A stretch of DNA of 64,000 nucleotides, taken from the NCBI GenBank assembly GCA_013002885.1, contig JABDLS010000099.1, positions 1-64,000 of the forward strand, read 5' to 3'. The notes beneath the pieces were generated by a model that saw only the letters and a program-made list of their open reading frames with translations, ran no database searches and was not told the origin of the DNA. Shown here in pieces: positions 2,718-62,009 of the stretch (its first letter is position 1; each line of letters begins with the position of its first letter). This stretch comes from Gemmatimonadota bacterium. GTDB lineage: Bacteria; Gemmatimonadota; Gemmatimonadetes; Longimicrobiales; Gaopeijiaceae. The position numbers and the translations under genes are program-made.

Positions 2718-3706
2718 GCCGAGGTCAGGGAGCGCCGCAAGAGCGCCAGAAAGAAGGGGACACCTACGAACGCCGTGATAACTCCGATGGGGATCTCGGT
2801 CGGTGCCAGAGCGAGGCGGGCCACCAGGTCCGCCAACGTCAAAAAGGCGCCGCCCGCCAGGAACGAAAGCGGCAGAAGGGCCCTGTGGTCGGGGCCGATC
2901 AGGAGCCGGACGGCGTGAGGGACCACGAGGCCGACGAATCCGATGACCCCGGCCACGGCCACGCCCGACGCGGTGATGAGGGCTGCCACCAGGAGAGCCG
3001 CACGCTTCACGCGCTCCACGTCCGTACCCAGGTACGCGGCCGTCTCCTCTCCGATGGCCATGAGGTTCAACGGGCGCGCGAAGGCGATGAGAAGGAGGGC
3101 GGCGGGGACAGTGTACGCCGCCGTGAGTGTGACGGCCCCCCAATCGGCAGCGGCGAGGCTGCCCATGATCCAAAGAACCGCGCTCTGCACCGTTCGAGCT
3201 GTCGAGAGCGACAGGATGAGCGTGATGCACGCCGAAAAGAAGGCCGCCACCACGACGCCCGCCAGCAGGAGCACCCTGACGTCCATGGCCCGGCCCGTCG
3301 CGGTGGCGACGCCGAAGACCATGGCGATGGCGAGGATGGCGCCGGCGAAGGCGGCGAGGGGCAGGACCCACGAACCACTGGCTGCCCATCCGAACGCGAG
3401 GACCAACACCGCACCCACCGAAGCCCCGCCCGATATCCCCAGGATATACGGCTCGGCGAGAGGATTCCTGAGGAGTGCCTGGAAGGTCGCTCCGGCCATC
3501 GCCAAGCCACCGCCTACGAGCACGCCGAGAAGGACCCGCGGCATACGCAGGCGAAGAACGATATCCCGGGCCGTGGGATCGCCCCCGCCTCGGAGGACCG
3601 CGAAGACGTCGTTCGTCGAGAGGGGCACCGAACCGAATCGCACGCCCACCACGAGGGAGACGGCCAGGACGACCGTGAGTCCGATCGCGAGGGACCAGCG
3701 ATTCAA
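2714..3706 (-). CDS. btuC: ABC transporter permease, BtuC/FecCD family
   Basis: Inner-membrane permease of the importer, 330 aa and about ten hydrophobic segments. The family hallmark near the C-terminus is clear: IGFVGLVVPHAVRLL, then GPDHRALLPLS and a following LADLVAR. GISGGASVGAV is the conserved loop after the early membrane helices. The start is taken as TTG at 3706, which overlaps the upstream TGA (TTGA junction), gives a signal-anchor-like N-terminus (NRWSLAIGLTVVLAVSLVV) and fits the family length. Longer readings would put an implausible arginine/glycine-rich extension inside the binding-protein gene. Confidence 0.9.
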   Translation of the reverse strand: MNRWSLAIGLTVVLAVSLVVGVRFGSVPLSTNDVFAVLRGGGDPTARDIVLRLRMPRVLLGVLVGGGLAMAGATFQALLRNPLAEPYILGISGGASVGAVLVLAFGWAASGSWVLPLAAFAGAILAIAMVFGVATATGRAMDVRVLLLAGVVVAAFFSACITLILSLSTARTVQSAVLWIMGSLAAADWGAVTLTAAYTVPAALLLIAFARPLNLMAIGEETAAYLGTDVERVKRAALLVAALITASGVAVAGVIGFVGLVVPHAVRLLIGPDHRALLPLSFLAGGAFLTLADLVARLALAPTEIPIGVITAFVGVPFFLALLRRSLTSA

Positions 3707-4659
3707 TGGACCGGACGGCCGTGGATGACCTCCGCCATGGATCGGGCGGCCTCGACGACGTCCGGACCGGGTACCTGGAGCGCGTCGCCCACCACTTCGA
3801 TCCGCGCGTTCGGCGTGAGAGACGCGTCGTAGGATCCTGCCCTGGTCACCAGGACGACATCGATCTCGCGGGCCCGCAGCTCTTCGGGGCTCACCGCCTG
3901 GTAGGGACTCGTCAGATCCCCGAAGACGTTGTCCCCCCCAGCCAGGGTCAGGATGTCGGAGATATAGGTGTCGGGGCCCGATACCCACGGCGGTGAGCCG
4001 CCGAGCATGTAGACCACTCGTTGGCGAGGCAGATCGGCAACGGACTGCGACAGGTCGGCGAGACCCTCACGAATGGTCGACGAGAGCGAGTCGGCGACCC
4101 GAGGTCGCCCCAGAAGTTGGCCGACGATCCGGTTGGTTTCGTATACGTCTCCGAGAGCCACCGGCCGCACCGCTACGTGAGGGATACCCAGGTCGTCGAG
4201 ACGGGCCGGGGTCCTCGGATCCTGCTCACCGTGGAAGCGGATCACGACGTCGGGATGCAGGGCCACCAACGACTCCATGTTCGGCTCCAGTCCACCGCCG
4301 ACGGATGGTAGCGACCCGGTCCACTCGCCATCGTCGTAGTCGGTTACACCTACGAGTGCGTCCTCAGCGCCGATGGCCCGGATGGTCTCGGTGGCCGACG
4401 GGACGAGGGAGATCACGCGCTGGGCGGGCGCCTCGAGCCGGTGCTCACGGCCAGCGGCGTCGGTGAAGAAGATCGCGGTTGTCGAGAGCGTGTCGGTTTC
4501 GGCCGGGGCGGCCCCCGACCCGTCCCGGGCATGATCTGCATCGAGCTGTGCTTCCTCCCCCGAGCACGACGACCCGACGAGAGCAGCGGCCAGCACGGCG
4601 AACCCGAGTAGGGAGCGGGCGGAGGGGTACCGGGGGGCGAGGCCGTCGCCTCGGACCAT
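3703..4659 (-). CDS. btuF: ABC transporter substrate-binding lipoprotein, BtuF/FecB-like
   Basis: Cell-surface or periplasmic solute-binding lipoprotein of the type II importer, 318 aa. N-terminal signal LLGFAVLAAALVGSSC with a lipidation cysteine, then the periplasmic-binding fold beginning QRVISLVPSATETIRAIGA, followed by PSVGGGLEPNMESLVALHPDVVI, both typical of cobalamin/iron-chelate binding proteins. The ATG at 4659 is chosen because it forms a TGATG junction with the upstream lipoprotein stop. A longer reading to 4713 would overlap that gene by 55 nt and push the signal peptide inward. It is coupled to the permease gene downstream. Confidence 0.87.
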   Translation of the reverse strand: MVRGDGLAPRYPSARSLLGFAVLAAALVGSSCSGEEAQLDADHARDGSGAAPAETDTLSTTAIFFTDAAGREHRLEAPAQRVISLVPSATETIRAIGAEDALVGVTDYDDGEWTGSLPSVGGGLEPNMESLVALHPDVVIRFHGEQDPRTPARLDDLGIPHVAVRPVALGDVYETNRIVGQLLGRPRVADSLSSTIREGLADLSQSVADLPRQRVVYMLGGSPPWVSGPDTYISDILTLAGGDNVFGDLTSPYQAVSPEELRAREIDVVLVTRAGSYDASLTPNARIEVVGDALQVPGPDVVEAARSMAEVIHGRPVH

Positions 4660-5648
4660 CAGGGCGTCGGCCGAGGGGCGGGGCCGCATGAATCCTCGTA
4701 CGATCGGACCCACTGGCCGTCCCGACGGTCGAGAACCGCAAACCAGCGACGCGTGGCTCCGAAGACGTCGACGAGGATCTCACTGGCGCCGTCGCCGTCC
4801 CAGTCCATGTGATCGTGGTATTGCGGGACACCTTTTCCTTCTGCCTCCACCGAACGGAAGACGCTGACGGCCTCGACGAAGCCGTCGCCCTCTGGACGAG
4901 CCACGACGAGGAGGCCGTAGGCGCCCTGGGACGGTGAGCCGATGCCCAGCTGGTCCCGATTCACGAAGGTCGTCGCGACCCACGGCCGAGCAGCGTCCAC
5001 GGGCTGGAAGGCCTGGGTGTGCTCCCGGATTCCCAGGGCCCCGTCGGACGGAAGGGTGGCGCCGTTCCTGGTGATGGCGTCCCTGGCGATGGCCAGCGCC
5101 GCAACCCGTTGATCGAAGACGTCGACGTGGGCGGCGAACGCGCTGTACGGCAGATCCGCCACGTCTTCGGCCGGGAACGCGAGGAATCGCTCCGCGGCCA
5201 CCGCCGACGGGACGAGTTCGAGGACGCCCGACACCCGGTGTGGTGCTCCGCAGTAATCCTCAGCCGCCTCGGAGGTATCGGCAACCAGGCGGCCGACGCG
5301 GACGCCCTCGGAGAACAGCACCCACTCGGAGCCCGGTGCGGTGAGTGTGGCGAGGCGCGCCGAGTCGCCGGGGAAGCGTGGGTCGGGGAAGGGAGTGAGG
5401 CCGCCTTCCAGGATCTCCCCGACGACCACGAGTTCCGCTCTTTCCTCGAAGCGGTCTCCGGCAAGGAGGATAGCGCCAGGCACCTTCGTGACGCTGTCCG
5501 TACTGGTAGGCCCACCGCCGAGGGAATCCGTGCCCTCTCCGGACGCCGGAGGCGCCTGCAACTGGACGTCGATCCCCCCCCAGGCCACGTTGTCGCAGCC
5601 GGTGGCCCCGGTTAAGATCAGCGCGAGTGCTAGTAAGTGCTTTCCCAT
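4659..5648 (-). CDS. lipoprotein of unknown function, first gene of the B12/iron-type importer operon
   Basis: Predicted exported lipoprotein of 329 aa, not assigned to a known family. The N-terminus MGKHLLALALILTGATGC is a signal peptide with a lipobox cysteine. The rest is soluble, with a C-terminal stretch DHMDWDGDGASEILVDVF resembling the calcium-binding-like repeats of FG-GAP/integrin-type proteins and ending RWFAVLDRRDGQWVRSYE. The start at 5648 is preferred over one 54 nt upstream because it places the signal peptide at the N-terminus and has AAGGG upstream. A TGATG junction couples it to the binding protein, so a role in ligand handling is possible but only inferred. Confidence 0.75.
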   Translation of the reverse strand: MGKHLLALALILTGATGCDNVAWGGIDVQLQAPPASGEGTDSLGGGPTSTDSVTKVPGAILLAGDRFEERAELVVVGEILEGGLTPFPDPRFPGDSARLATLTAPGSEWVLFSEGVRVGRLVADTSEAAEDYCGAPHRVSGVLELVPSAVAAERFLAFPAEDVADLPYSAFAAHVDVFDQRVAALAIARDAITRNGATLPSDGALGIREHTQAFQPVDAARPWVATTFVNRDQLGIGSPSQGAYGLLVVARPEGDGFVEAVSVFRSVEAEGKGVPQYHDHMDWDGDGASEILVDVFGATRRWFAVLDRRDGQWVRSYEDSCGPAPRPTP

Positions 5649-5740
5649 CAAGCCCTTGAGGTCGGTTCGACTCCGAGTCCGACGGCGGATCCCGGGCCTC
5701 ACAAGCTAGCGACGCCCACTTGGTGAGCAAGCCGATTCCA

Positions 5741-6229
5741 ATGGACCTTCGAGAACAAGCCGACGCCTCGCTGCGCGAGGTCATGAGCATTTACCCGACT
5801 GGGGTGACGGTGGTCGCAGCCAGCGATCCGGACGGCTCGCCGTATGGACTTACCGTAAACTCCTTCACGTCGTTGTCTCTCGAGCCCCCTCTCGTTCTCG
5901 TGTGCATCGGACACACATCGAGCTCACACGCTCGCTTGATCGTGGCTCCTGCGTTCACGGTCAACGTCCTCGCTGCTGACCAGGAGGAGGTCGCCTCCCG
6001 GTTCTCCCGGGACCCGTCCGAAGGGCGGTTCCAGGATTTCCCCTGGCGGCGGGCTGTCTCGGGAGCTCCGGTACTGGATGGCGTCGCGGCCTGGCTGGAG
6101 TGTTCGGTCCACGAAGTTCTCGCCGGTGGCGACCACTCCATCGTCGTGGGGCGAGTGCAACGGTCTGCGGTGTCCGACCGGCCGGCTCTTCTCTTTCATC
6201 GCGGTCGTTTGGGTCCGACGGCCAAATGA
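5741..6229 (+). CDS. flavin reductase family protein
   Basis: NAD(P)H:flavin oxidoreductase-like domain protein of about 162 aa, likely binding FMN and supplying reduced flavin or acting as a diflavin-type reductase. The family opening is seen (MSIYPTGVTVVAAS, then PYGLTVNSFTSLSLEPPLVLVCI) and the late SIVVGRV strand. The ATG at 5741 matches where family members begin; in-frame TTG at 5720 and GTG at 5723 are alternatives and no start has a clear ribosome site. Its stop overlaps the next gene in an ATGA junction, making it the first gene of a four-gene rightward cluster. No partner monooxygenase is adjacent. Confidence 0.85.
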   Translation: MDLREQADASLREVMSIYPTGVTVVAASDPDGSPYGLTVNSFTSLSLEPPLVLVCIGHTSSSHARLIVAPAFTVNVLAADQEEVASRFSRDPSEGRFQDFPWRRAVSGAPVLDGVAAWLECSVHEVLAGGDHSIVVGRVQRSAVSDRPALLFHRGRLGPTAK

Positions 6230-7551
6230 CGGACCGGTATTCGCGGGTCGATTGGCTGCCTCCCCTTCTCGTAGGGGCCTCGGCGGCCGTGGCCGCAGAG
6301 GTGGCGTTGGCCCTGCTGCTCTACGGAGGAGCCGGCTTCGTCCGGTCTCTGACCACGATTCTCGCCGTGGAGGGGATGGCCCTCGCCGTGGGACTGTGGG
6401 GTGCCCCCGGGGAGGGATCGGACCTCGTCGATCGGCTGCGTCGTCGGTGGCTCTTCTGCCTCTTCGCCTTCGTCGCGGCGGCGTCCTTCGGAATCGCGTG
6501 GAGCATCTTTCCCCGGGTCGGCGACGGTGCCCTCGGGCAGGGCGTCGGGCTGACGGTGCTGGCTGCCCTCCCGCTCTATGCTGCCGGTGGGGTTCTCGGC
6601 GGCATGGCCGTCGTCGCGGGGACCGATCCCGGACGGCGTCTGCGTCTTCCCGGGGCCTCGGCGGCCCTGGGTGCCGCTGCCGGCTTCGTCCTCACCGGCG
6701 CGTTGCTGCCGCGCGTCCCTCTTCCGGCGTCGTTGCTGTTGGGCTGCCTGGTCATGCTCTCCCTGGGGGGAATGCTCTACGGGGGTGTCCTGGCTGCCCG
6801 GACGGAGCTTCGGACGTTGGCCCGACGACCCGGCCGGGGCCCCGATGTCCGGGTCGAAGAGCGTAGGCTTCCCGCGGAGGACCTCGCCACACTCGAACTG
6901 TGGGAAGGGCCCTTTCTCCGCCGAAGGATGGTTCTCGACAGCGGAGTACCAGAAGCGTGGGAAGTGGCGCTGATCCGAGCTTTTCTCGGGGCCGGGGCCG
7001 ACTCGCCCAGTGAAGCCGGATTCCGTGTTCTCAGCGTGGGGGGTGGAGCCTCCGCGCTGGTGGGACAACTCCTCCGGCTCCACCCGACGGCAACCATCGA
7101 CGTCCTCGAGAGGACCGCCGCTGTGGTGGAGCTCGGGCGAGAGCACTTCGACACTGGCCTGTCCGTCGGCGGTCACGACCGGTGCTCCGTGACGTTGGGG
7201 AATCTCGACGATGCCATCACCGCCCGCGACGGAGGCTACGACCTCGTCATCATCGACTCCGACGCCATGGCTCCCATCGGTGGTCTCATGGGACTCTCGC
7301 GGATGGCTCGCAGGCGACTCCCGGCGCTCGTGAGTGGTGGAGGGGTCCTTGTCTGTGGCCCCGACGGGTCCGATCTGGACCCGTCGACAGTGCCCGCTGG
7401 GTGGAGGGCCGCGCGATACCGTCGTCCCCGCTCCCGGGATGTCGGGTCTGTCGACATGGCGAGGGATGTCGCCCTGGTGCTCGTGCGCCGCGGCGACGAG
7501 TCTGCGACGCCTCCGGCACTGCCCGGCTTCAAGGAAGTACCCGTCACGTGA
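6226..7551 (+). CDS. membrane protein with C-terminal spermidine-synthase-like (Rossmann methyltransferase fold) domain
   Basis: 441 aa. The N-terminal half (about residues 10-190) holds several hydrophobic helices. The C-terminal half carries a nucleotide-fold pattern as in polyamine synthases: VLSVGGGASALVGQLL, then TIDVLERTAAVVELGREHF, and YDLVIIDSDAMAPIG where spermidine synthases have the catalytic Asp strand. Membrane proteins with a spermidine-synthase-like domain are common in bacteria and mostly uncharacterised, so the substrate is unknown. The ATG at 6226 overlaps the flavin reductase stop (ATGA), and its own stop overlaps the next start (GTGA). Alternative: a SAM-dependent methyltransferase. 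Confidence 0.75.
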   Translation: MTDRYSRVDWLPPLLVGASAAVAAEVALALLLYGGAGFVRSLTTILAVEGMALAVGLWGAPGEGSDLVDRLRRRWLFCLFAFVAAASFGIAWSIFPRVGDGALGQGVGLTVLAALPLYAAGGVLGGMAVVAGTDPGRRLRLPGASAALGAAAGFVLTGALLPRVPLPASLLLGCLVMLSLGGMLYGGVLAARTELRTLARRPGRGPDVRVEERRLPAEDLATLELWEGPFLRRRMVLDSGVPEAWEVALIRAFLGAGADSPSEAGFRVLSVGGGASALVGQLLRLHPTATIDVLERTAAVVELGREHFDTGLSVGGHDRCSVTLGNLDDAITARDGGYDLVIIDSDAMAPIGGLMGLSRMARRRLPALVSGGGVLVCGPDGSDLDPSTVPAGWRAARYRRPRSRDVGSVDMARDVALVLVRRGDESATPPALPGFKEVPVT

Positions 7552-10046
7552 TCGTCGCGCACCTCTCGGACCTGCACCTCGGTTTCCGGGCCTACGGCAG
7601 GATCGAGCAGGGTGCGAACATGCGGGAGCGCGACGTCGCGGCGGCATTCGAACGGGCGGTCCAGGCCGTCGTGGGCTTGAAGCCCGATGCTGTCGTCGTG
7701 GCTGGAGACGTATTCGATCGCCCCGATCCCCCGGCGAGCGCCGTCATTGCCCTTGCTCGGGGACTGGAGACCCTCCGGGTGGCGCTTCCCGAGACGCCGG
7801 TCCTGATGGTGGCGGGTCCCAGGGACACGTCTCGACGCCCCGGCGATCCGGGGGCACTGGCCGTGCTCGACACCTTTCCCAACGTCGAAGCGGCCACCGG
7901 ACTGACGCGATCGATCCTCATCGATCGTCTCGGGCTCCATGCTTGCCTCGTGCCATACCGATCGGTCATTCGGCGACCGCCCGCTCCTCCGGATCCCGAC
8001 CCGAGAATGCGATGGAACCTGCTCGTCCTCCATGCGGAGGTAGGGCGGGGCGAGCAGGGACTGGTCGTCGATCCCGCCGAATGGGACTACGTGGCCCTCG
8101 GCGGGGAGCACGCCCGAACGACCCTGGCCGGCCACGTCCGGTATCCGGGATCTCTGGAGCGGGTTGCCCTCGACCCATGGAAGGAGGCCGCCGACGAGAA
8201 GGGCTTCCTCGTCGCCGACCTGAGCAGGGCCGAGGTCGACTTCCACGCCATCCCCGGCCGACCCGTAGTCGCCCTCGCTCCCATCAAAGTGGCGCCAGGC
8301 GACAGCGAGCGCGTCCGCCGAAGGGTTGGAGAGGTCGCTCGAGAGGTCCCTGGAGGGATCGCAGACAAGATTGTGCGGATGAGGCTTCAAGGGGCGACGC
8401 CCTTCGACGTATTGGCTCTTCAAGGCGAGCCCCTGCAGGCCCTGCGGAGCGAAGCCCTTCACCTCGTCGTCGAGGCGGGCAGAGACCTGCGGGTGCCCGC
8501 CGAGGCGAGGAGCCCGGCGGCCGCTCCGCGGCTGCTCCGGGAGGCCGTCCTCGCCGAACTGGAACGCGACGGAACGGACTCGGAGGAGGCAGCGCAGGTG
8601 GTGGCCGAAGTCATCCCGGACGTGTCCTACAGTGCGATCGATCGTCCCCACGGCGACGTCGATGCCCTGGACGGAGAGATTGCTGGACTGGGTCGGCTCT
8701 CCACCTCCGTGCCACCAGGGCTTACGGCGGTGTTGGGCGGCGATGGACGCGCGAGGCGGGCCGTCGCCCAGTTCTTCGTGGAGTCGGGCTCGACAGGGCC
8801 TGAGGGCGCCATCGCGCGATGGTGGCGGGGCGAGCCCGTCGAGACGCTGGAGGGAGCCTTTCGGCGGGCATCCGACGCGGTGGCCGAGAGCCGTGGTCTG
8901 GGTCTCGTGGATCAGGCTCTGGAGACCCTGGGCGCTCGCAGCGTGCCATCGTCGGAACAGGATTTGCCCCGGGAGCGTCCGGTGGGGGGGGCGGTCCGGG
9001 TGGATCCCGACCATCTCCAGATGGAGTTCGACACCGCCCGGAAGGAACTGCTGGCCACTCGCGCTGACGCGACCGAGGTCGATGGAGACCTGGAGGTGGC
9101 CACGATGGACTGGCACCGGGAGCGGCAAGATGCGGAGACGACCCTCCACGCCTACCGCGACCGCGCCCGGGAGCTGAGGTCCCGAATCCGCCAGATGGAA
9201 GTGGCAGGCCCCGAAGCGCCTTGTCCGACCTGTGGTCGTGTACTGGAGAGCCACTACGACGAGGTGCTGGCGAAACTCCGCGATCAGTACGAGTCGGTGG
9301 TTCAGGACGGCAGCTGGTGGCGAAGCCGGTGGGAGCAGCTCGAGCCCAAGCCTGGACACCTTCGTGACCTCGAGCGTCGCTCGCTGACCCTCCACGCCAC
9401 TGTAGAGGCTGGGTCGGAGCGCGTGGAGCTCCTCCGGGCACGACTCGGGGAGTATGAGGAGGCGTGGACGCCGGCTTCGGGGGCGGAGGTCGAAGGGGTT
9501 CGGGGTGGGGTAGTGACGGCGTTGAATCGCGTGCGGACCGCCCGACGCACCCGTGCCATCGACCTCCTCCTCGACAGGGCCTCACGTTTCGTATCGAGGA
9601 TTTCGGGAGCGCGTATCCTCGCCGTCACCGTCGTCGACGACACCGTCCACCTACAAGGCAGCGAGGGCGTCCTGACACCCTTGTCCGAGGAGGACCTCGG
9701 GGCCGGCCGCATGGCGTTGAGGCTCGCCGCCGCGTCCCTCCTCGCCGGCCGCGGCAGCGTCGTCGCGTCACTCGCGGTGGAGCAGCCCTTCGACCGTTTG
9801 GACGAGGAAGCCCGCATCCGCACCCTGGTGCTCACGAAAGGGCTCCTCCGAGAGATCCCCCGCATCGTCCTCTTCAGCCGGGGAGACGCTGTCGAGGCCC
9901 GTCCGGAGCTCTTCGACTACCTCCTCGAGGTTCGAGACGAGGGGTCGTTGTCCGGTCCGGTCCTGAAGCCTGCGCCGTCCGGCCCGGGGCGGGTGGCCCT
10001 GCGCCCGGCTGTGCGGCGCCGGCCGGCGGCTGCCGGCGAGGGCTGA
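7548..10046 (+). CDS. single-chain Mre11-Rad50-like fusion with degenerate nuclease and ATPase motifs
   Basis: 832 aa; GTG start in a GTGA junction with the preceding gene. Residues 1-240 match an SbcD/Mre11 metallophosphoesterase: SDLHLGF (7-13), GDVFD (53-57), LHAEV (161-165), then YVALGGEHA. The metal motifs usually read GNHD and GHxH, but here they are GPRDT (90-94) and GGEH (185-188). Residues about 390-780 match Rad50/SbcC: a Walker A-like position GGDGRARR lacking Lys-Ser/Thr, a coiled coil with a zinc hook CPTCG (559-563), a signature-like LSEEDLGAG, and a Walker B position LAVEQPFDRLDEE where Asp-Glu has become Glu-Gln. I infer a structural DNA- or end-binding protein, or a regulator, rather than an active ATP-driven nuclease. 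Confidence 0.8.
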   Translation: MIVAHLSDLHLGFRAYGRIEQGANMRERDVAAAFERAVQAVVGLKPDAVVVAGDVFDRPDPPASAVIALARGLETLRVALPETPVLMVAGPRDTSRRPGDPGALAVLDTFPNVEAATGLTRSILIDRLGLHACLVPYRSVIRRPPAPPDPDPRMRWNLLVLHAEVGRGEQGLVVDPAEWDYVALGGEHARTTLAGHVRYPGSLERVALDPWKEAADEKGFLVADLSRAEVDFHAIPGRPVVALAPIKVAPGDSERVRRRVGEVAREVPGGIADKIVRMRLQGATPFDVLALQGEPLQALRSEALHLVVEAGRDLRVPAEARSPAAAPRLLREAVLAELERDGTDSEEAAQVVAEVIPDVSYSAIDRPHGDVDALDGEIAGLGRLSTSVPPGLTAVLGGDGRARRAVAQFFVESGSTGPEGAIARWWRGEPVETLEGAFRRASDAVAESRGLGLVDQALETLGARSVPSSEQDLPRERPVGGAVRVDPDHLQMEFDTARKELLATRADATEVDGDLEVATMDWHRERQDAETTLHAYRDRARELRSRIRQMEVAGPEAPCPTCGRVLESHYDEVLAKLRDQYESVVQDGSWWRSRWEQLEPKPGHLRDLERRSLTLHATVEAGSERVELLRARLGEYEEAWTPASGAEVEGVRGGVVTALNRVRTARRTRAIDLLLDRASRFVSRISGARILAVTVVDDTVHLQGSEGVLTPLSEEDLGAGRMALRLAAASLLAGRGSVVASLAVEQPFDRLDEEARIRTLVLTKGLLREIPRIVLFSRGDAVEARPELFDYLLEVRDEGSLSGPVLKPAPSGPGRVALRPAVRRRPAAAGEG

Positions 10047-58108: not shown

Positions 58109-60748
58109 TCACCTCGCGAGTCGAAGAACGCACGCGCCCCGGCGCTCCAGGTGCTCAGCCATCTCGGGGTGGCAGGTAAAGGCGAAGACCTGTCGCGTCC
58201 GGGCGAGCTCGGCTACGACCTCCAGGCCCTTCTCCCGACGGGATGCGTCCCAGTTGACGAAAGCCTCGTCGAGGAAGAGTGGGAGCCGCTCCTCACCCTG
58301 ATCGAGGTGGTCGACGATGGCGAGGCGCAGGGCGAGGTATGCCTGCTCCAAGGTGCCGGTGGAGATGGGGCGAGCGAGGGGCACTGGAGCGGGCAACTGG
58401 GGGCCCATGAGTTGGAAGAGATCGCCATCGCCCTCCTCTTGGACCATGAGGCGATCGTAACGGCCGTCGGTGAGGCGTTCGAGGTAACCTGAAGCCAGAC
58501 GTAGAAGGTCAGGCTGATGCTCTTCCCTGAACCGCCGGTCGGCCTCTCGCACGAGGCGGGCCAGGAGCCACCTCTTGTCGCGCTCGACGGTCAGCCGGAG
58601 TGCCTCCTCCTTCAGGCTGTCGATCTCGCTATCGACGGTGTCGACCGTCTCCTGGTCGCGCCGGTGGATGACATCACGCTCCAGAGCGTCGCCACGGCCT
58701 CTCAACTCCTCGATGCTCTCGTCCAACTCCTCGATACGGAGCTTACGCCGGGCCAGGTCCTCGTCGTCCACGGACCACGTTACGCCCGCCTGTTCAGCGC
58801 TACGGATGTCCTCGATCCGCGCCTCGAGGTCGGGGTGGGCCGTCTCGAGCTCCTCCTGAAGGCGGTCCGCACGGTGATGGGCGTCCAGGCGTCGCTGGAG
58901 CACGTCGATCGGCTTCCCTCCCTCGGCTCCTGCGGCGAGCTGCCAGACCCGCTGGTCGATCTCGGCCAGGCGGTCGTCGACCTCGGCCAGCTCCGCAACC
59001 AGCCCTGCCCTGAGCCGTTCCACCCGGACGAGCTCTCTTTCGGCGGCTGCGGCCGCGTCCGATGCCCGCTCGGCTTCCCTCAACTCGCGGTCGAGGCTCC
59101 GTGCGAGTGCGATGGGATCGTCGCCAGCATCCCGCCCGAGGCCGCCCGCCAAGGCCTGGGCCTCGGTCCGTAGCTCCTCGGACCGTGCCCGCAGAAGGCC
59201 CGCCTGGCTCTCGACCTCCCCGGCCTCCCGCAGAGTCGCCTGAACGGCCTCGAAGGCCTGGACCAAGGGCTGGGCGGGCGGATCCAGGTACTCGGCTCGC
59301 ACCGGGATGTTGGCCAGCATCCCCTCTACCTCACGTTGCGTGATGCCCCCTCTCGCTTCCTCGGCGGGAGGCGGTGCGGCTGTTCCACGTCGCTGCAGGA
59401 TGGTGGCCACCGCCACCGCCGTGGCGGCCGCCCCCAGCACGGTCGCCGGCGTCACGCTTTCGACGAGACCCCACGCCAGGATCGCGGCACCGATGCCGGC
59501 GGCGGCGAGTTGAGCCCATGTCACCGGTCCGTTCGCCGCCGGGTGGGTGGGAGCGTCGTCCCCTCGGCGCCGGTCCGCTGCGGCTCGCTCCACACGGTCC
59601 CGCAGCAATTCCACGGAGGTCGCGAGCACCGTCTCACCGATCACCCCATCGAGGGGCGTGGAAAGCAGCCGGTCGGCTTCCGCCGCCAGGCGTACTTCGA
59701 GTTCACCCGTCCTGGTCTCGAGATCGGCGAGTCGCACTCGGTCCCGCTGGGCCAGATCAGCCCGAGAGACGAAGGCGGCGATGGGGTCACGCTGGTCGAG
59801 GAGTACCTTCCGACGAGCGTCGAAGTCGCCGATGGTGGCCTGCGGTTCACGCAGGTCGTCGTCCAATGCCTGGATCTCGCGGGTGAGCGCCTCTCCGCGG
59901 TTGGCCAGGGAGTCCCTGTGGCCCACCACGTCGTCCGGCAGCTCCACCAGATCCGAACGAGGGCCTCCCGACCTCCGCAGTGCTTCGATTCGCTCCAACT
60001 GTCGCTTCAACGGCAACAGCTCCTGAAGACGCTCTACGACCAGCTTCTCCCGGTGTCGCTCGGCGCGGGCCTCCTGCAGACGGCGGGCGACGCCTTCGCC
60101 TTCCTCGACCAGGGCGCGGATCTCCCGGTCGCGCTCGACGGCTGCGCTACGTCGAGATCGGAGGTCGCGGATCTCCGACTGCAGGTCGCGAAGGCGTTGG
60201 TTCCCCCGTCTGTTGGGCCGCCAGATCTCGCCGGCCTCGCGCTCGAGCGTGTCGGCGACCTCTCGTGCCGAGCGCAGGTCCGAAGCGCCCATGGAGCCGA
60301 GTACCCGATCCTGGATGCTGGCCCAGGTCTCCTCGTCCAGGCCGGCCAGCTCCTGAAGCGTGATGGCGAAGACCTGACGGAAAACCGTTCGCGGCACGTG
60401 CTCCGCCCAGCGCAGAGGGCGATTCCGAAGCTCCCGGGAATCCTCTCCGAACGTGAGCGTCCCTGAAGGCGACGACCGGAGACGCCGGGCCACGGTGGCT
60501 CGGCCTCCCGATGAAAGACGGAGGGAGATCTCTCCGCCGGCCTCCTCGGCACCCCACGGAACGTACGGGCTACGGTCACGCGCAGCAGGATGGAATCCGT
60601 ACAGAGCCGTGGTAAGGAAGTGAAAGAGGGTGGACTTGCCGGCCTCGTTGGGCCCCAGGACGACGACCAGGGAACCGAGCCTCTTCGGGCCTGTGTCGAA
60701 GCCGCTCAGCCGCCCGAACCCGTCGATGCGGATCTGTTCGATCTTCAT
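58109..60748 (-). CDS. YhaN-like AAA/ABC ATPase with coiled coils and a central membrane hairpin (Rad50/SbcC relative)
   Basis: 879 aa. Walker A VVVLGPNEAGKSTLFHFLTTALYGF at about residues 29-52 (motif GPNEAGKST, 32-40); two long coiled-coil arms (about 190-430 and 530-760); between them two hydrophobic helices (TWAQLAAAGIGAAILAWGLV and TPATVLGAAATAVAVATIL) instead of a zinc hook, as in Bacillus YhaN. C-terminal signature ISTGTLEQAYLALRLA and intact Walker B LPLFLDEAFVNWD (Asp827-Glu828). The ATG at 60748 gives MKIEQIRIDGFGRL, the usual opening. Acts with the adjacent phosphoesterase, probably at membrane-proximal DNA; precise role unknown. Confidence 0.87.
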   Translation of the reverse strand: MKIEQIRIDGFGRLSGFDTGPKRLGSLVVVLGPNEAGKSTLFHFLTTALYGFHPAARDRSPYVPWGAEEAGGEISLRLSSGGRATVARRLRSSPSGTLTFGEDSRELRNRPLRWAEHVPRTVFRQVFAITLQELAGLDEETWASIQDRVLGSMGASDLRSAREVADTLEREAGEIWRPNRRGNQRLRDLQSEIRDLRSRRSAAVERDREIRALVEEGEGVARRLQEARAERHREKLVVERLQELLPLKRQLERIEALRRSGGPRSDLVELPDDVVGHRDSLANRGEALTREIQALDDDLREPQATIGDFDARRKVLLDQRDPIAAFVSRADLAQRDRVRLADLETRTGELEVRLAAEADRLLSTPLDGVIGETVLATSVELLRDRVERAAADRRRGDDAPTHPAANGPVTWAQLAAAGIGAAILAWGLVESVTPATVLGAAATAVAVATILQRRGTAAPPPAEEARGGITQREVEGMLANIPVRAEYLDPPAQPLVQAFEAVQATLREAGEVESQAGLLRARSEELRTEAQALAGGLGRDAGDDPIALARSLDRELREAERASDAAAAAERELVRVERLRAGLVAELAEVDDRLAEIDQRVWQLAAGAEGGKPIDVLQRRLDAHHRADRLQEELETAHPDLEARIEDIRSAEQAGVTWSVDDEDLARRKLRIEELDESIEELRGRGDALERDVIHRRDQETVDTVDSEIDSLKEEALRLTVERDKRWLLARLVREADRRFREEHQPDLLRLASGYLERLTDGRYDRLMVQEEGDGDLFQLMGPQLPAPVPLARPISTGTLEQAYLALRLAIVDHLDQGEERLPLFLDEAFVNWDASRREKGLEVVAELARTRQVFAFTCHPEMAEHLERRGACVLRLAR

Positions 60749-60764
60749 CGGGGGACCGGCCTCG

Positions 60765-62009
60765 TCACGAGTCTCCGGAGGCGAGGAGTCGAGCGGCCAC
60801 CTCTCCTTCGGCGTCTGCAAGAAGTCGACGGACGTAGGCTTCGATGGCAAGCGGATCGTCGGAGGGCGCACCCACGAGCTCGCTGGCATCGACGTCCAGG
60901 ATCGATTCGCCACGCCCGAGTCGGTCGACCATCCGGAGCGCCTGCCCGAGGACGTCGGTGCGAGCCCGGTGCTCTTCGATGGGGAAGACGGGGTGGACGG
61001 CATCGGCGAGCACGGTGACGTCGATGGCACCGAGAATGTCCCGCAACTCACGGCCGAGCATCTCGACCTCTTCTCCTCGGCGCAGTTCAGACCAGAGGGG
61101 GCAGGGCCCCGAGAGAACGACCCTCGCCATCCACTCGGCGTCCGAGCCGGAGTCCGCTTCCCTACGGGCTTCCCACGCGAAATGGATCGTTCGTTCTAAT
61201 TCGTCGAGGGTGCCCACGTCGTCGAGGCGATCGACCTCCAGGGTTTCCCACCGGACGCCGGCGAGGGGTCGAAAGGTCACCGACGGAGCGAGGCGGTCGG
61301 ACAGGTCGACGAGCAGTCCACCACGCTCGCCCGTGTCGGCGTTCGTCTTCCCTTGAGGGCTGCCCGGATACCAGATGGGAGGGTCCTCGCAGAGCTGCTG
61401 GCGAACGTGGACGTGACCGAGCGCCCAATAGTCGAAACCGGCGTGACGGAGGTAGGTCAGGTCGGAAGGGGCGTAGGCTCCGTGATCGGCGGCGCCTAAC
61501 GAGGTGCGGACCTGGGTGTGCAGCAGAGCGACCTCCGGAAGGTCCCCCTTCGGACGCGGAAGCCGGCGGGAGAGGTCCTCGCTGACCTCCGACGTGGCGT
61601 GCCCGATGGCGCTCACGTGGCCCACGGGGGCGCCGGTGCGGTCGGCGATGAGGAAGCGCTGTGGCGTAGCGTCCGCCGCGACGCGCACGTTCGCCGGCCA
61701 GGGCAGGCGCCGGGGTCCGCGGTCCAGAGACCCCGGGTCGTGATTGCCGGTGGCGTAGACGACGGTGATGTCGTGATCGCCCAGGCGGGTGGCTTGCTCC
61801 AGAAGGAAGCGCTCGGTCTGGAAGGAGAGCCGGTCGCCGTCGAAGAGGTCGCCTGCGACGAGAAGTGCTTGAACTTCTTCCCGAATGGCGACATCGACGG
61901 CCCGCCGAAAGGCTCCCCGGGCCGCCTCGCGGAGCTGCCTGCGAACGGCCTCTGAACGGCCCGTGAACGACGTATCCAGGTGGACGTCGGCGATGTGCAG
62001 AAAACGCAT
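60765..62009 (-). CDS. YhaO/SbcD-like metallophosphoesterase (Mre11 relative)
   Basis: 414 aa nuclease-type calcineurin phosphoesterase. All metal motifs are intact: FLHIADVHLDTSF (Asp8, His10), LLVAGDLFDGD (Asp54), YATGNHDPGS (Asn89, His90), LLHTQVRTS and WALGHVHVRQQL. The C-terminal 130 residues form a capping/partner-binding region. It is followed 16 bp later by the YhaN-like ATPase gene, as in yhaO-yhaN of Bacillus and sbcD-sbcC generally. Likely processes DNA ends with its partner. Confidence 0.9.
   Translation of the reverse strand: MRFLHIADVHLDTSFTGRSEAVRRQLREAARGAFRRAVDVAIREEVQALLVAGDLFDGDRLSFQTERFLLEQATRLGDHDITVVYATGNHDPGSLDRGPRRLPWPANVRVAADATPQRFLIADRTGAPVGHVSAIGHATSEVSEDLSRRLPRPKGDLPEVALLHTQVRTSLGAADHGAYAPSDLTYLRHAGFDYWALGHVHVRQQLCEDPPIWYPGSPQGKTNADTGERGGLLVDLSDRLAPSVTFRPLAGVRWETLEVDRLDDVGTLDELERTIHFAWEARREADSGSDAEWMARVVLSGPCPLWSELRRGEEVEMLGRELRDILGAIDVTVLADAVHPVFPIEEHRARTDVLGQALRMVDRLGRGESILDVDASELVGAPSDDPLAIEAYVRRLLADAEGEVAARLLASGDS

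Follow-up and report, generated by a model that had tools for sequence, protein, structure and literature searches.

What the zinc hook and coiled-coil arms of Rad50 contribute apart from the enzyme that carries them is a long-standing question, usually approached through engineered mutants. It is raised in a natural setting by a gene in a 64,000-nucleotide stretch of a Gemmatimonadota bacterium of the family Gaopeijiaceae (contig JABDLS010000099.1, positions 1 to 64,000; here the window), where a single open frame of 832 amino acids (aa) with a GTG start, at 7548-10046 on the + strand, joins a phosphoesterase of the Mre11/SbcD type to a Rad50-like ATPase, with catalytic motifs altered in both. 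What can such a protein be, and why is it kept? There is very little doubt about its identity or about the loss of its motifs across the whole family. As to its role, the explanation that we consider best, though by a modest degree of belief, is an orthologue disarmed in place that would act as a hook-held tether or scaffold at DNA.

Both halves can be recognised from several kinds of search. An earlier interpretation of this DNA, made from its letters alone (the sequence-only reading), had described one frame with the strings SDLHLGF, GDVFD, GPRD, GGEH, GGDGRARR, CPTCG and LAVEQPF, every one of which is found, and its assignment of an SbcD-type and a Rad50-type half agrees with Pfam, NCBIfam and structure-profile searches, which match both. 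The phosphoesterase domain, aa 1-240 (7548..8267, +), matches Pfam Metallophos over aa 3-93 (E 5.9e-6) and NCBIfam sbcd with E 5e-13 and 49.4 bits, below the curated cut-off of 77.65 bits; this cut-off is a weak test because an intact member of the sister family f3 itself scores 77.0 bits. The Pfam Rad50_zn_hook match is weaker (E 0.19, 12 bits, below the 24.3-bit cut-off). A profile built from 11 orthologues finds Mre11 of M. jannaschii (3auz, E 3.5e-15, positions 1-250) and the C-lobe of P. furiosus Rad50 (3qku, E 1.2e-5, positions 618-780), and a profile of 22 family members gives E 6.2e-20 and 9.8e-9 for the same two structures. A phosphoesterase fold homologous to Mre11 is, to judge from these matches, present in the fused protein. 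Between the two halves, aa 241-360 (8268..8627, +) would by its position be the counterpart of the Mre11 capping and Rad50-binding region, where a low-confidence model predicts two helices (aa 323-355). A chance or misread frame is ruled out by the orthologues.

How much of the nuclease site is left was read from 92 family copies. The phosphoesterase counts omit a masked or broken copy (L142) and a second, contig-end copy of genome G021 (L038), the hook and ATPase counts omit L038 alone, genomes G073 and G136 stand outside the motif analysis, and the contig-cut copy of G009 stands outside the family motif tables and is covered by the alignment in which the P-loop was compared with intact relatives. 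Motif I (HLSDLHLGF, 7560..7586, +) and motif II (GDVFD, 7704..7718, +) are kept, with D8 in 91, H10 in 90 and D54 in 89 of the 92 copies, and the motif IV His is present in 56. Motif III is lost: GPRDTSR stands in place of GNHDxPR (7815..7835, +), neither the Asn nor the His occurs in any copy (0/92 each), and Arg is found in 90/92. In motif V, GGEH replaces GHYH (8100..8111, +), the first His surviving in 6/92 copies and the second, H188 of the window protein, in 88/92. From the P. furiosus numbering, we take D8, H10, D54 and the last His to be ligands of the first metal, and the lost residues to be ligands of the second metal together with the catalytic His. By that numbering, half of the nuclease site survives: the first metal site is mostly kept (ligands in 88-91/92 copies) and the second lost. 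The sequence-only reading, which had both active sites degraded, was therefore right for the ATPase, whose motifs are all changed, and too sweeping for the nuclease. H85, H173, H206 and H208 are named among the nuclease residues in PMC4996933 and PMC3175470.

Such a half-site invites the idea that the protein is still an enzyme but with different chemistry, a phosphoesterase that works with one metal, or is changed in some other way, and uses D8, H10, D54 and H188. The near-uniform retention of these ligands and the Arg for the catalytic His in 90/92 copies look like a directed change rather than random decay, but the same His is described in PMC4996933 as essential for Mre11 nuclease activity, the second-metal positions are lost (the Asn of motif III in every copy, the first His of GHxH in all but six), and one genus, g17, is also without the GD Asp; we regard this explanation as improbable.

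The ATPase motifs have fared worse. At the P-loop position, the window protein has GLTAVLGGDGRARRAVAQ aligned to GLTGIIGPNGAGKSTILE of intact relatives, and the whole Walker A remnant reads GLTAVLGGDGRARRAVAQFF (8718..8777, +, by the same alignment); the degraded P-loop proposed at GGDGRARR thus falls where intact relatives have their Walker A. The Lys-Ser/Thr pair of Walker A is found in 0/92 family copies (some rows being contig-cut), against 15/15 in the sister families f2 and f3. The ATP-binding cassette signature reads SEEDL instead of SGGEED (9684..9698, +), Walker B LAVEQPFDRLD instead of LILDEVFGSLD (9771..9803, +) and the H-loop FSRGD instead of ITHIE (9873..9887, +), each by alignment. 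The Walker B Asp is absent from all 92 aligned rows, four of which have gaps there. It had been claimed that both acidic residues of Walker B are changed, the Glu to Gln; this is true of the window protein, and the loss of the Asp is family-wide, but Gln occupies the Glu position in only 13 of the 92 copies and Glu itself in 27, so that Gln is not universal. A non-canonical mode of ATP binding, or an ATPase site completed by a partner, could appeal to the P-loop shape GLTAxxGGxGRxR kept by relatives of the window protein and to the frequency of Glu or Gln at the Walker B Glu position in the near clade. Against it stand the complete absence of the Walker A Lys-Ser/Thr and of the Walker B Asp and the loss of the signature and H-loop as well, and we hold it very unlikely.

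What has been kept is the hook. The CPTC motif (9222..9233, +) has both Cys in 92/92 family copies and stands, by sequence and in the model of the C-terminal half, between two coiled-coil arms, predicted at aa 487-553 (9006..9206, +) and at aa 570-637 (9255..9458, +), the second of which carries a strongly conserved QDGxWW...R..QL segment. In one genus, g41 (L096-L115), the hooks lack the usual Pro and read CGGC, CSGC, CRSC or CANC with both Cys kept, and a canonical SbcC-like gene is also present. Both arms are shortened. Among 30 intact ATPases the distance from P-loop to hook is 375 aa in 25, 373 or 374 in four and 330 in one, and that from hook to Walker B is 329 aa in 28, with 330 and 269 in the other two; in the family, the distance from GLT to hook is 167-173 aa where the P-loop remnant is recognisable, against 381 in intact proteins, and hook to Walker B spans 140-223 aa. 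Compared with intact relatives, the window protein lacks about 210 aa between P-loop and hook.

The pattern of conservation differs accordingly between the two groups, as compared with one row per genus and listed partial rows excluded (27 family genera against 30 intact ATPases from several families). Mean identity within 50 aa on either side of the hook is 0.57 in the family against 0.42 in the intact proteins, while it is 0.30 against 0.78 at the signature, 0.27 against 0.74 at Walker B and 0.55 against 0.72 over the first 100 aa. The invariant columns listed in the 22-member family alignment comprise 20 within aa 511-608 around the hook and one after it. Across the family, as far as aligned sequences can tell, conservation has shifted away from the ATPase motifs and towards the hook.

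Does the C-terminal half still fold as a Rad50 head? The Rad50-like C-lobe, aa 650-810 (9495..9977, +), was placed by profile and fold comparison. With the predicted model of this half, Foldseek returned first the Salmonella Lamassu LmuACB structure (E 6.6e-6) and then Rad50 3qkt (E 2.9e-5), and VIA-align placed Rad50 3qku first (Z 12.7, 4.4 A over 241 residues, both lobes), a score that exceeds those of unrelated long-helix proteins (Z about 11) by little; matches to phosphoinositide 3-kinase regulatory subunits were discounted as matches between long helices. The N-lobe part of the model has a predicted local distance difference test (pLDDT) score below 50. The C-lobe assignment is supported by sequence and predicted fold, that of the N-lobe remnant being weaker. 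A Rad50-like head, proposed earlier as something to be checked, is thus backed by profile matches and structure comparison.

A protein so altered might be a relic on its way out, and its distribution gives that idea a foothold: the gene is missing from 23 of the 121 family genomes, and absence is commoner where a canonical SbcC is present (14 of 39 genomes) than where there is none (9 of 82; Fisher p 0.002, uncorrected for kinship). The gene is nevertheless carried by 13/13 other genomes of the genus, 12 times at full length with 66-79% identity and once cut by a contig end. A homologue occurs in 98/121 family genomes, in 61/73 of the best among these, and in 329/395 sampled phylum genomes, family included, most of the class outside the family having a match. 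The frame is intact in all 26 genus and near copies examined, and purifying selection acts on the gene, six pairs giving whole-open-reading-frame omega values of 0.040-0.192; the codon model behind the regional estimates is saturated at synonymous sites. Small genus genomes of 2.3-2.4 Mb still carry the gene, and its hook is more conserved than in active relatives. A decaying gene is ruled out by the intact frames, purifying selection and losses common to the whole family, and we give a relic hardly any credence. The other outcome that had been set against the sequence-only reading, close homologues with intact motifs, was not observed: the homologues share the changes. Its proposal of a pseudoenzyme that keeps the hook and coiled-coil scaffold appears to hold, in view of family-wide losses, purifying selection and hook Cys kept throughout.

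From what did this gene arise? In f2 and f3, the sister families, the counterpart is a pair of adjacent genes in 15/15 copies with Walker A in all; GNHD is kept in 14/15, the exception being L055, and the hook, read in 13, and Walker B, read in 12, are always intact (two of the ATPase genes are contig-cut early and a third lacks its C-terminus). In families f4, f5, f6 and f9 the pair is split in 20/20 further copies, with nuclease motifs intact except for one GDYH (L172), motif I unread in L157 and L162, where its pattern matched at another position, and ATPase motifs complete in the 18 copies that are not contig-cut. Where contigs are long enough, the family and f2/f3 have one neighbourhood in common: a flavin reductase, an upstream gene, the pair or fused gene, and the same downstream genes. 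From this shared neighbourhood and the intact pair in sister families it follows that the degenerate gene is a vertical, in-place descendant of the intact pair. In the window, the flavin reductase-like neighbour lies at 5720..6229 (+; Pfam and neighbourhood comparison) and the upstream gene at 6100..7551 (+). The TGA stop of this gene and the GTG start of the fused one share bases (GTGA), and in 20 of the 26 genus and near copies an upstream frame that stays open over more than 150 aa ends in a comparable overlap. The C-terminal part of this upstream gene is spermidine-synthase-like, a weak Pfam similarity to spermine synthase below cut-off.

In a tree of the Mre11 halves, from which L142, L098 and L038 were excluded, the family forms one clade with a Shimodaira-Hasegawa-like approximate likelihood ratio test support of 100, and the fused or split state changes at least six times (L027 and L128 also excluded), some splits possibly being assembly errors. 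Two-gene copies within the clade carry the same catalytic losses. The family therefore inherited the loss of catalysis from its ancestor, fusion (or fission) came later and repeatedly, and the fusion was not the starting event that it had been thought to be. A horizontally acquired viral or plasmid fusion of the kind reported in 2011 has the same domain order, but the place and neighbours of the gene are those of the intact pair, degenerate two-gene copies lie in the same clade, and neither phages (3 records covering no more than 11% of the query) nor plasmids (20 records, with no more than 29% among the 8 matches listed) match beyond the phosphoesterase part. On synteny and these poor matches such an origin is ruled out, with virtually no probability left to it.

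One copy in family f3, L055 of genome G054 (3499-7084), has a nuclease-degenerate Mre11 (GDRDTPR, GHHP) beside a fully intact Rad50. Its Mre11 half groups with the family (support 87, or 85 without the motif columns; approximately unbiased test p 0.010 against grouping with f3) and its Rad50 half with f3 (97, starred), in half trees that also exclude L042 and L027 and use 17 of the 20 class outgroup Mre11 halves. These conflicting placements suggest long-branch attraction or parallel loss, and L055 was set aside as a true intermediate; at best it hints that loss may begin with the nuclease, and it is not used as proof of the order of loss.

Could the protein instead serve another nuclease? The window also holds an intact SbcD/SbcC-like pair of separate genes at 58109-62009 (-), which we take to be YhaO/YhaN-like, its phosphoesterase (60765-62009) with GDLF, GNHD and GHVH and its ATPase (58109-61051) with GPNEAGKST and LDEAF. 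Strong matches to AddAB-like PDDEXK proteins (E <= 5e-31) are present in 12/14 genus genomes, G007 having a weak match and G008 none, and break resection therefore need not depend on the fused gene. A regulatory or recruiting subunit for such a nuclease, rather than a tether, would accord with both observations. Set against it, no second SbcD-type match was found at E <= 0.001 in 5/14 genus genomes (G002, G004, G009, G012 and G013), all of which carry the fused gene, so that a YhaO-like partner is not obligate and a link to the pair was rejected; neighbourhood comparison, too, offered no conserved new neighbour as a candidate partner. We consider a subunit role rather unlikely. An obligate link to non-homologous end joining was ruled out, with Ku in only 5/14 genus and 61/121 family genomes, and PADLOC returned weak coiled-coil matches only (LmuB, E 0.009) and no defence assignment.

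An intact Rad50 of the f3 type is rarely found in genomes of the family. An intact f3 Rad50 query has a match in 93/121 family genomes; among the matches listed, degenerate copies align only around the hook segment, and in a few genomes the query also reaches the C-lobe of a different, canonical SbcC-like gene. Only 1/121, G110, was found to have a second copy that is full-length and intact, a Rad50-like gene of 924 aa (G110:C160:3832-6219; 32% identity to f3 Rad50) present in addition to a degenerate fused gene. Canonical SbcC-like genes occur in genera g11, g8, g41, g42 and g22 and in G116 and G139. Genera g11 and g8 are without the degenerate gene and have canonical SbcCD-like genes instead, possibly a replacement. 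By hand count, the degenerate gene is present in 25/39 genomes with canonical SbcC and in 73/82 without, the comparison behind the Fisher test given above, which ignores kinship and involves few independent losses; the anticorrelation is only suggestive of overlapping function.

The architecture itself, which the sequence-only reading believed undescribed, has been known since 2011. Fusions with Mre11 N-terminal and Rad50 C-terminal were reported for Mimivirus R555 and for 12 further proteins, of which five are from bacteria (Yoshida 2011, PMC3175470). According to that paper, R555 has Walker A and Walker B together with most of the nuclease residues, whereas two fusions (Anaerostipes and a Bacillus phage) showed no sign of one of the P-loop segments; the order of the halves is explained by the closeness of the Mre11 C-terminus to the Rad50 N-terminus, and the fusions are reported to occur sporadically and to be only remote relatives of canonical proteins. 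Gemmatimonadota are unmentioned in its searched text. The window protein has the same order in one chain, but its gene occupies the place of the intact pair instead of forming a lineage apart from it, descends vertically and has lost both sites family-wide. A close likeness is to the archaeal-type Mre11-Rad50 (SbcD/SbcC) operon of f2-f6 and f9, homologous over both halves, with the hook and, by prediction, the head folds in common, and in f2/f3 at the same chromosomal place; that operon has two genes, all catalytic motifs and, in nearly all copies, 375 aa from P-loop to hook and 329 aa from hook to Walker B, whereas the family usually has one gene, lost motifs and about 165-170 and 140-223 aa. 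The YhaO/YhaN-like pair, SbcD/SbcC-like and in the same genome, differs in its separate genes and intact motifs. In eukaryotic DNA polymerase B-subunits a disarmed Mre11-like phosphoesterase is kept as a structural subunit, according to PMC4996933; the fold has there likewise outlived catalysis, but with no Rad50 part or hook and with all catalytic residues lost, whereas the window family keeps half a metal site. Searches of the open-access literature found no paper on Rad50 in Gemmatimonadota and, among the matches listed for degenerate, pseudo or inactive Mre11-Rad50, none describing this case. A Mre11-Rad50 fusion is not new, then; what appears to be new is that both active sites have been lost in a conserved manner and the hook retained.

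How might such a protein work? Sequence comparison shows that an archaeal-type Mre11-Rad50 operon in the family ancestor lost both catalytic sites and that its coiled-coil arms and N-lobe were shortened; the tree shows repeated fusion of the two genes. Selection still maintains a single chain, in which a phosphoesterase fold with half a metal site, and with Arg where the catalytic His would be, is joined through a short arm bearing an intact CxxC zinc hook to a Rad50-like head devoid of ATPase motifs. According to PMC6969161, the Rad50 hook alone dimerises stably and constitutively and can be swapped with an SMC hinge in yeast. In the family, the zinc hook may hold two chains together permanently, the two head ends would bind DNA ends, DNA backbone or a partner protein with no ATP-driven opening or cutting, and the result would be a constitutive short bridge at DNA, with other enzymes processing the breaks. 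The uniform Arg, next to the retained metal ligands, might bind a phosphate of DNA without its being cut. On sequence and analogy, we put an ATP-independent tether or scaffold dimerised by its hook at about an even chance, and the fuller proposal, that the whole family turned Mre11-Rad50 into such a tether with the Arg making the nuclease site a phosphate reader, is more tentative still.

Several observations weigh against the tether. AlphaFold2 gave pLDDT 57.7 for the whole chain from 11 sequences, too poor for interpretation of the head, and 68.6 for the C-terminal half, with arms and hook near 90, so that model confidence is low to middling. The gene's absence from 23 family genomes means that it is not universal. 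Every part of the protein is conserved in the genus and its near relatives, where the phosphoesterase and the C-lobe are under stronger constraint than the hook: the codon model, with synonymous sites saturated, puts regional omega at 0.02 for the phosphoesterase, 0.03 for the C-lobe, 0.05 for hook and coil and 0.07 for the middle, and in two close pairs hook and coil reach 0.315 and 0.399 against 0.158 and 0.298 for the C-lobe. From these values, the C-lobe clearly does something in the genus.

For the family and its relatives, the consequences are twofold. An SbcD/SbcC-like gene in a genome does not imply a working Mre11-Rad50. The lineages also form a graded natural series, from the intact two-gene enzyme in the sister families through two genes without catalysis to one fused gene without it, which makes the usefulness of ATP-free hook tethering in the cell directly testable. 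If the tether explanation is true, the family would represent a natural separation of function, in which hook and short arms are the selected function without cutting or ATP hydrolysis.

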